Shown here: piece after piece, positions 49,329 to 51,168 of the stretch
Numbering within the stretch: the first letter of the stretch is position 1
Layout: each line of letters opens with the position of its first letter
Assembly (NCBI GenBank): GCA_002753335.1
Contig: PEAD01000005.1
Location: 62,001 to 126,000, forward strand
Direction: 5' to 3'
DNA length: 64,000 bases
DNA from: Nitrospirae bacterium MYbin3
GTDB lineage: Bacteria > Nitrospirota > Thermodesulfovibrionia > Thermodesulfovibrionales > Dissulfurispiraceae
Made by a program: the position numbers and the translations under genes
The notes under the pieces: generated by a model
What the model saw: only the letters and a program-made list of their open reading frames with translations
The model's database searches: none
What the model was told of the DNA's origin: nothing

Positions 49329-49419
49329 GGAGAGGTGTCCGAGTTGGCTGAAGGAGCACGACTGGAAATCGTGTGTGGGGTTAAACTCACCGAGGGTTCG
49401 AATCCCTCCCTCTCCGCCA
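49329..49419 (+). tRNA. tRNA-Ser (GGA anticodon)
   Basis: A 91-base type II tRNA with CCA encoded. Acceptor GGAGAGG (49329-49335) pairs with CCTCTCC (49409-49415); discriminator G; CCA 49417-49419. Anticodon stem CACGA/TCGTG with loop CTGGAAA gives anticodon GGA. A long variable arm (GTGGGGTTAAACTCAC) is typical of tRNA-Ser. T arm GAGGG TTCGAAT CCCTC. Confidence 0.95.
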
Positions 49420-49424
49420 TGATT
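49390..49424 (+). repeat. Left copy of a 35-bp direct repeat (tRNA-Ser 3' end)
   Basis: Contains the T arm, acceptor 3' strand, discriminator and CCA of tRNA-Ser and six bases beyond. It repeats at 51134-51168 with one mismatch (CCCTCC versus CCCTTC). Direct repeats of a tRNA 3' end at both sides of a DNA segment mark site-specific insertion. Confidence 0.88.
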
Positions 49425-49674
49425 ATGCTCTTACCCATTAGAAGTGTTTGCAATCTGTAACACCTTATTTTCTTTCCCATGCAGCAAGTTCTGCGTGTTG
49501 TCTCCGTATACTCCTGAGGTATTCCGTTCTGTATCAACGTTTAGCTTGTAGGTAGAGTTGAGAGATCTGCCTAACAAAAATCTTCAGTCAATCTACGTAA
49601 TAACTCTTTGCACAAAAGCAAAAATACAAGCTACTTATTTTGCTTTTAGGCAAATAAGTTAGTATAATAACTCA

Positions 49675-50847
49675 ATGCTGAAAATCAGAACTCTCACACC
49701 ATATATAGCGGAAGATCTGAAGCATAAGATGGTTTTTGTGGGTGGACCGCGCCAAGTAGGCAAGACAACCCTCTGCAGGAACTTAGTTGCTGCATCTTTT
49801 CGGAATCACGCATATTTCAATTGGGACAACAGGACTGACCGAAGGAAGATTATGTCGGCATCGTGGCCCGGTGATGCTGAACTTTTAATCTTTGATGAGA
49901 TCCATAAGTATCGGAAGTGGAAGGGACTAATTAAGGGTGAATACGATAAGCTGAATGACAGGTTCAAGTTTCTAGTTACCGGCAGTGCCAGGCTTGATCT
50001 TTACAGAAAGGGTGGCGATTCCTTACAGGGAAGATATCATTACTACAGGCTTCACCCCTTTGCGCTGGCCGAGATGGAAAACATTCCCTACAAGGCCTCG
50101 GTGTTAGGTGAAATACCAGTAGGGCAGGAGTTTTATCAGGATACTTTGAATGTTCTAGACAGTTTTGGAGGATTTCCAGAGCCAGTCACCGGACAGAGCA
50201 AACGTCAGCTTAGGCGTTGGCATAATGAGAAGATCGAAAGAATGTTTCGGGAAGACATAATGGATGTCCAGACAATCAGGGATATAGGCAACATGAAACT
50301 CTTGAGCGACATACTGCCAACAAAGGTCGGCTCTCTTTTATCGCTCAATGCGATACGAGAGGATCTGGAGATCAGCCATCGTGCCGTAAGTCATTGGATG
50401 GATATTCTTGAGACTTTCTACTACCAGTTTCGTATATATCCATACTCGACAAAGACCATACGGTCTCTTAAAAAAGAGCCTAAATTATACTTATGGGATT
50501 GGTCGGAGGTTGAGGATGAGGCTGCACGCTTTGAAAACCTCATAGCGTCTCATCTTCTTAAATTCGTGCATTTCATCATAGACCATGAAGGGCACAAGGC
50601 GGAACTGAACTATCTGAGAGATGTAGACAAGCGTGAAGTGGATTTCCTTGTGACGATCAATAAAAAACCCTGGTTTGCTGTTGATTGTAAACTCAATGAT
50701 ACTTCTTTATCATCAAACCTGCTTTATTTCAGGGACAGGCTAGCTATTCCATATGTCTATCAGGTGGTAAAAAAAGACAAAACGGACAGTATCGAGAAAG
50801 GCGCCAGGATTATTTCGGCTGGAAGATTCCTTTCAGGCCTTGTTTGA
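49675..50847 (+). CDS. AAA_14/DUF4143 ATPase
   Basis: A 390-residue protein. Walker A GGPRQVGKTTL (about residues 23-33), Walker B LLIFDEIHKYRKWKG, sensor segment FLVTGSARLDLYRKGGDSLQGRYHYYRLHPFAL, and a C-terminal DUF4143 domain with nuclease-like segment KREVDFLVTINKKPWFAVDCKL (PD-(D/E)xK-like: D...CK). Such ATPases are common in bacteria and archaea, often in multiple scattered copies, but their role is not established. Sits alone inside the tRNA-flanked element. Confidence 0.85.
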   Translation: MLKIRTLTPYIAEDLKHKMVFVGGPRQVGKTTLCRNLVAASFRNHAYFNWDNRTDRRKIMSASWPGDAELLIFDEIHKYRKWKGLIKGEYDKLNDRFKFLVTGSARLDLYRKGGDSLQGRYHYYRLHPFALAEMENIPYKASVLGEIPVGQEFYQDTLNVLDSFGGFPEPVTGQSKRQLRRWHNEKIERMFREDIMDVQTIRDIGNMKLLSDILPTKVGSLLSLNAIREDLEISHRAVSHWMDILETFYYQFRIYPYSTKTIRSLKKEPKLYLWDWSEVEDEAARFENLIASHLLKFVHFIIDHEGHKAELNYLRDVDKREVDFLVTINKKPWFAVDCKLNDTSLSSNLLYFRDRLAIPYVYQVVKKDKTDSIEKGARIISAGRFLSGLV

Positions 50848-51133
50848 AAAATACTGATTGCCGATTGACTGTTTAGGGTTCATCGCCATCCAATGCCATG
50901 ATATGAAGGCTTGTGCATCTGGATTACGACCACCACCACTGTTGCAAGGAATGCAACTTAAACAGTTAGTGGCCAGCTATTGCATTACATCTGTTTTTCC
51001 CATTTGTTTTGTTATAGGATATAACACATTTACTATTATCTGATATCTGAAACTGAGTGGACTATTCCCGTTGACATAACTCGTTCCGTACTCGTTCCGT
51101 TTTATGCTATAATCCTTTGTTGCATGCGGGCTG

Positions 51134-51168
51134 CCGAGGGTTCGAATCCCTTCCTCTCCGCCATGATT
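51134..51168 (+). repeat. Right copy of the 35-bp repeat (partial tRNA-Ser 3' end)
   Basis: A 3'-half tRNA fragment without a 5' half, directly upstream of the SRP RNA gene. The sequence before it (TGCATGCGGGCTG) does not form the rest of a tRNA. It is the remnant of the original tRNA end displaced by the insertion. Confidence 0.88.

Follow-up and report, generated by a model that had tools for sequence, protein, structure and literature searches.

In Islander (PMC4383910), a regenerated tRNA gene and a displaced tRNA fragment mark the ends of a genomic island. The 64,000-nt stretch of Nitrospirae bacterium MYbin3 DNA analysed here (the window) holds an insert bounded in the same way, by an intact tRNA gene and a displaced tRNA 3′ fragment, and relatives of the window genome provide clean empty sites. 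Unlike islands of that type, the insert has no integrase and contains one intact gene; at 1.74 kb it also falls below the 2-kb filter of Islander.

The gene product has described counterparts of its own. Makarova and colleagues (PMC4158269) reported, in dark matter islands, an arCOG03166-like AAA+ ATPase that carries fused HTH and RecB nuclease domains, and noted the family as likely defence; the window protein, which is likened to that family by description, shares this architecture but is bacterial. It also matches strongly (E 5.9e-48) the PADLOC profile PDC-S01 for a candidate single-gene defence system, although that profile is silent on flanking duplications, and a defence role is here a candidate one. 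Foreign genes beside a retained partial copy of a neighbour are known from single-crossover insertion-duplication and homology-facilitated illegitimate recombination. Single crossovers of trimmed circles in E. coli left duplications of 109–950 bp (PMC3240628), and insertion in Vibrio T6SS arrays took place beside retained gene remnants (PMC5361080). Those cases are laboratory events or T6SS arrays, whereas here one ATPase family is involved, repeatedly and across phyla.

The literature on DUF4143, COG1373 and AAA_14 offered nothing useful on mobility. The locus bears on how lone defence-like genes without a mobility gene cross phyla, and the new observation is an excess of locus-specific direct repeats around DUF4143 ATPase genes.

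Insertion at the tRNA-Ser(GGA) gene

The earlier note on this DNA held that the end of tRNA-Ser(GGA) recurs 1.74 kb away with one mismatch, and the repeat search confirms it: the direct repeat is 35 nt long, with one mismatch and a spacing of 1744 bp (E about 1e-11 when 2.5-kb flanks are compared; Table 1). It runs from the T arm through the 3′ end of the tRNA, a typical tRNA attachment core. The tRNA-Ser(GGA) is the single tRNA that ARAGORN finds in the window, and the second repeat copy is therefore a tRNA fragment and not, as the earlier note had allowed, a full gene. Elsewhere in the genome the 35-bp repeat occurs only in other complete tRNA-Ser genes, and the repeat-flanked unit has no second copy there.

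Removal of the segment had been expected to restore the ancestral gene order, and the relatives bear this out. In the same-genus genome G001 (locus L045), the site is cleanly empty, with tRNA-Ser followed by 17 nt, ffs and dnaX, and the window cut at either repeat copy gives this site again, bar point differences. In the window, ffs lies just after the right repeat copy; it directly adjoins tRNA-Ser in 24 of the 29 tRNA-Ser loci of relatives. None of the 29 relatives carries the window's DUF4143 ATPase at the tRNA-Ser/ffs locus, so that the arrangement which the earlier note would have counted against an insertion, the same ATPase at this site without repeats, is absent. In G024, a DUF4143 gene adjoins a tRNA-Ser, but without a second tRNA fragment. 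The 1.7-kb segment is an insertion of foreign DNA at the 3′ end of tRNA-Ser.

The sole long ORF between the repeats encodes the 390-aa ATPase. The ORF list and Pfam agree with the earlier note on one DUF4143 ATPase gene and no integrase, none being seen by eye among the ORFs; a 61-aa ORF (50858–51043) has no Pfam match. Of the features by which tRNA islands are recognized, the target tRNA gene with a displaced 3′ fragment at the ends and the empty site in a close relative are present, and an integrase gene within the insert is absent from the ORF list. Since its ORFs include no integrase candidate, the insert is filed as a remnant and not as an active island.

Table 1. Features of the window and direct repeats at other DUF4143 loci. 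Repeat genes are named from their translations; only the integrase was profile-tested.
Locus	Feature	Position	Strand	Basis
Window	tRNA-Ser(GGA), intact target gene	49329–49419	+	ARAGORN, Rfam RF00005
Window	Left 35-bp repeat copy (T arm, acceptor, CCA and 5 bp beyond)	49390–49424	+	Repeat search
Window	Left non-coding part of insert	49425–49606		Similarity searches
Window	Palindrome TTTGC..GCAAA, operator-like, kept upstream of relatives	49607–49654	+	
Window	TATAAT −10 box, conserved, 6 nt before ATG	49663–49668	+	Read from sequence
Window	AAA_14/DUF4143 protein gene	49675–50847	+	ORF list, Pfam, model, PADLOC PDC-S01
Window	Decayed ADP-ribosylglycohydrolase gene fragment, 80% over 66 bp	50881–50946	−	
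Window	Two tandem 11-bp units ACTCGTTCCGT near right end	51079–51100		Read from sequence
Window	Right repeat copy, tRNA fragment with one C-to-T change	51134–51168	+	ARAGORN, repeat search
Window	ffs, small SRP RNA, neighbour of tRNA-Ser in relatives	51181–51278	+	RF00169
L095	Repeat: tRNA-Ala 3′ end; fragment follows gene			
L010	Repeat: nadD start			
L092	Repeat: rluD start			
L111	Repeat: WYL-protein end, three copies around two different DUF4143 genes			
L161	Repeat: cobM end			
L214	Repeat: asnB start, three copies			
L232, Simkania negevensis plasmid pSn	Repeat: integrase gene; two copies ~79% identical	1448–4676		

Probable decay of the insert

The left 182 nt of the insert show no similarity elsewhere. 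The right 286 nt include the 66 bp that resemble an ADP-ribosylglycohydrolase gene, a fragment that is broken by stops when translated. Its homologue in the same genome encodes 454 aa and lies 53 bp after tRNA-Ser(GCT). Among 60 relatives, this gene finds only matches of 32–40% identity, and G001 has no match at all; the gene is therefore foreign itself. Searched against 176 genomes of the order, the non-coding insert DNA gave nothing else beyond short motifs of ~30 bp. The decayed piece, together with a homologue beside another tRNA-Ser, favours an eroded, integrase-less island remnant over a working mini-element. To judge from their sequence, the two tandem 11-bp units towards the right end may be recombinase arm sites. 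No ends are shared between the insert and resident integrase loci.

The ADP-ribosylglycohydrolase gene (L236, G000:C64, 3028–4392) has an N-terminal hydrophobic part. The same genome contains, at L081 (G000:C50, 6635–7835), two identical 34-bp tRNA-Leu(CAA) 3′ ends with ~1.1 kb between them. Apart from what looks like a scrap of a transposase, this interval has only a tyrosine integrase of 261 aa.

The ATPase and its relatives

Both Pfam domains of the protein, AAA_14 and DUF4143, score above cut-off (91 and 77.1 bits). The AlphaFold2 model was built with 52 sequences and has a pLDDT of 91.8; an earlier model from 6 sequences (pLDDT 35) was not used. Residues 1–281 match the archaeal ATPases 2qen (Z 15.2, rmsd 3.6, 237 aligned) and 2fna (Z 15.0, rmsd 4.0, 244 aligned), with NLR and CED-4 chains next among the matches (Z 12–13). 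As modelled, this part is a STAND-like NTPase with HTH and winged helix, an assignment of fold only and not of function. A sequence search of solved structures with the ATPase returned designed proteins only. For residues 282–365, the predicted order alpha-beta-beta-beta-alpha-beta is that of PD-(D/E)XK nucleases, and the putative nuclease residues E287, D323, K339 and E337, the last of which is D in the window protein, are conserved or invariant. These residues and the secondary structure place the region in the predicted PD-(D/E)XK fold. The ATPase probably makes up a defence system by itself and would cut DNA when triggered.

Close relatives, at 60–86% identity, occur in several phyla, in records labelled Nitrospirae, Nitrospinota, Deltaproteobacteria, Aminicenantes, Spirochaetes and others. 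Their occurrence is sporadic (each of the 14 carriers among 176 genomes of the order has one close ATPase copy); none was confirmed in viral contigs, and phages and plasmids gave only distant relatives. When 20 loci are compared, only the stretch between about −60 and the stop codon is more alike than expected by chance; outside it identity is random, and the conserved sequences at both termini by which a transposon would be recognized are absent. The upstream palindrome folds better than its shuffles (z −3.8 to −6.1), and in most close relatives 5–8 nt separate TATAAT from the ATG. Because the box lies so close to the start codon, the mRNA is probably leaderless. Scans for consensus promoters and terminators gave no more sites than in shuffles. 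The ATPase family is widely transferred as a promoter plus ORF. The operator palindrome also precedes, at L014 (2638–2690), a DUF4143 gene of only ~28% protein identity.

Direct repeats around DUF4143 genes

Of 40 DUF4143 ORFs tested, 12 lie between direct repeats; of 325 control ORFs, 9 do (Fisher p 8e-8). The p value is indicative, given that the loci depend in part on one another and that the limits are post hoc. Partial copies of a neighbour enclose DUF4143 genes at about ten times the rate for ordinary genes. Repeats were sought within 700 nt on each side at a limit of 38 bits, both limits being set after a first look, and the count of 12/40 leaves out loci that had been fetched because a repeat had been seen. 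With all loci included, the figures are 18/50 and 13/373. Random intervals had repeats in 4 of 268 cases, and PIN-domain genes of the same genome set in 1 of 27, that one being a CRISPR repeat.

The repeats are locus-specific, differing at every locus and measuring from 26 bp to about 1 kb, and the right copy often begins within 25 nt of the DUF4143 stop codon. The pattern recurs in finished isolate plasmids, namely those of Simkania negevensis and Pseudomonas mendocina; the 2 of 16 finished plasmid loci with repeats speak against assembly error and also indicate that the repeat rate varies between sets. Most relatives of the ATPase gene lie away from tRNAs; these, too, are often enclosed by partial copies of whatever gene adjoins them. 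The tRNA repeat therefore tells how the window copy arrived or survived, and not what type of element it is. At L097, a tRNA-Leu 3′ fragment follows the DUF4143 gene, with no second copy in the contig.

Codon positions suggest where the second copies came from. Differences between copies are biased towards third positions at four of six testable coding loci: 80 of 133 at L232 (p 2e-10), 16 of 30 at L092, 23 of 48 at L111 and, at L010, 9 of the 13 changes peculiar to the nadD fragment. The test was not significant at L161 and L085. At the nadD locus, for which 15 family genomes give empty sites, the tree places the fragment weakly (55% support) with G054, another species, and not with the nadD of its own genome. 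Third-position divergence is that of functional homologues and unlike that of a drifting fresh duplicate; at these four loci, imported DNA carrying a homologue of the neighbour is the better account, rather than transposition by the DUF4143 gene. A clean target duplication, considered as a general mechanism, is weakened by the codon-position bias and by the nadD tree.

Origin of the window insertion

With little more than even confidence, we read the window insert as an old, horizontally acquired insertion made by an integrase at the tRNA-Ser(GGA) 3′ end, in an island that has since eroded. Incoming DNA with a tRNA-Ser 3′ end would have recombined into the chromosomal tRNA gene, most likely through a tyrosine integrase of the island that is now lost, and would have left the two 35-bp copies. 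The rest of the island may then have decayed to scraps such as the ADP-ribosylglycohydrolase fragment, the surviving gene being that of the putative STAND-like ATPase with winged helix and PD-(D/E)XK nuclease, under its own palindromic promoter. The ATPase is best explained as a passenger and not as the agent of movement, its family often being fixed between partial copies of a new neighbour, presumably scars of recombination with incoming DNA in which a homologue of that neighbour was present. The repeats, the empty site, the decayed fragment and the second mini-remnant, at tRNA-Leu, all argue for this, as do the tRNA 3′-end fragments that follow the gene at L095 and L097; against it, the insert has no integrase remnant, the loss of the integrase being presumed, and the ADP-ribosylglycohydrolase match spans 66 bp only. 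An integrase is not required, since protein-gene repeats in relatives arise without tRNAs. Foreign ATPase DNA with a piece of tRNA-Ser, circularised or fragmentary, could have entered by a RecA single crossover or by homology-assisted illegitimate recombination, the shared stretch being duplicated on integration. RecA recombination has its lower length limit near 35 bp, which counts against such an entry here. Its precedents are the single crossovers of E. coli (PMC3240628), the third-position divergence at L232, L010, L092 and L111, and the repeats made of nadD, rluD, cobM, WYL, asnB or integrase pieces across the family. For the window we regard this course as possible but rather doubtful, and prefer an integrase-made insertion, because the 35 bp fall on just that part of a tRNA gene which classically serves as the attachment core.

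The earlier note had further suggested a minimal satellite moved in trans by the integrase of another element. Its insertion with a duplicated end and no integrase stands; a functional satellite finds no such support, the unit being single-copy in the genome and its non-coding parts lacking close matches in the 176 genomes. Two near-identical ends, other tyrosine integrases in the genome and the tandem 11-bp units would suit a satellite, but the insert contains a decayed gene fragment, and of the resident integrases only the one at tRNA-Leu was seen between tRNA-end repeats, whose core differs; this reading is unlikely. Nor does the ATPase-nuclease seem to be an autonomous one-gene element whose own insertion duplicates variable stretches of the target. 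The excess of flanking repeats (12/40 against 9/325), the closeness of many right copies to the stop codon (25 nt or less) and the palindrome conserved at the other end are what such an element would produce; it becomes very improbable given that no sequence is conserved beyond the stop codon, that each genome has one close copy, that repeats occur at only 2 of 16 finished plasmid loci and that the copies resemble imported homologues, and not fresh duplications, at 4 of 6 testable loci. An artefact in which two strain haplotypes were joined is hardly credible: most family cases are metagenome-assembled genomes and many of the family's genes are near contig ends, but the contig of the window is 126 kb long and has the insert in its interior, the finished Simkania negevensis and Pseudomonas mendocina plasmids show the pattern, and PIN-domain genes of the same genomes yield only the one CRISPR repeat.

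In our opinion, the partial host-gene duplications that are in excess beside DUF4143 ATPases can be read as a scar of the event that joined gene and host DNA, and the bias in codon positions suggests that the second copy was imported along with the gene in several cases. If confirmed, flanking partial duplications would be a marker for tracing the arrival of single defence genes. A speculation to which we give only a slim chance is that DUF4143 ATPase-nucleases promote their own acquisition, their cutting or remodelling of DNA aiding single-gene circles to recombine at short host homology; they would then spread as a promoter-plus-ORF unit, with partial tRNA or protein-gene duplications at each new site.

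Such scars are not unique to DUF4143, since at L217 (G169:C135, 2646–5022) a gene resembling a Fic-family protein lies between 84% direct repeats. At L213 (G042:C5, 2392–13889), a patch dense in short repeats, 95–100% identical, contains two DUF4143 genes and a transposase gene of the REP-associated type (CIMPTHLH motif).
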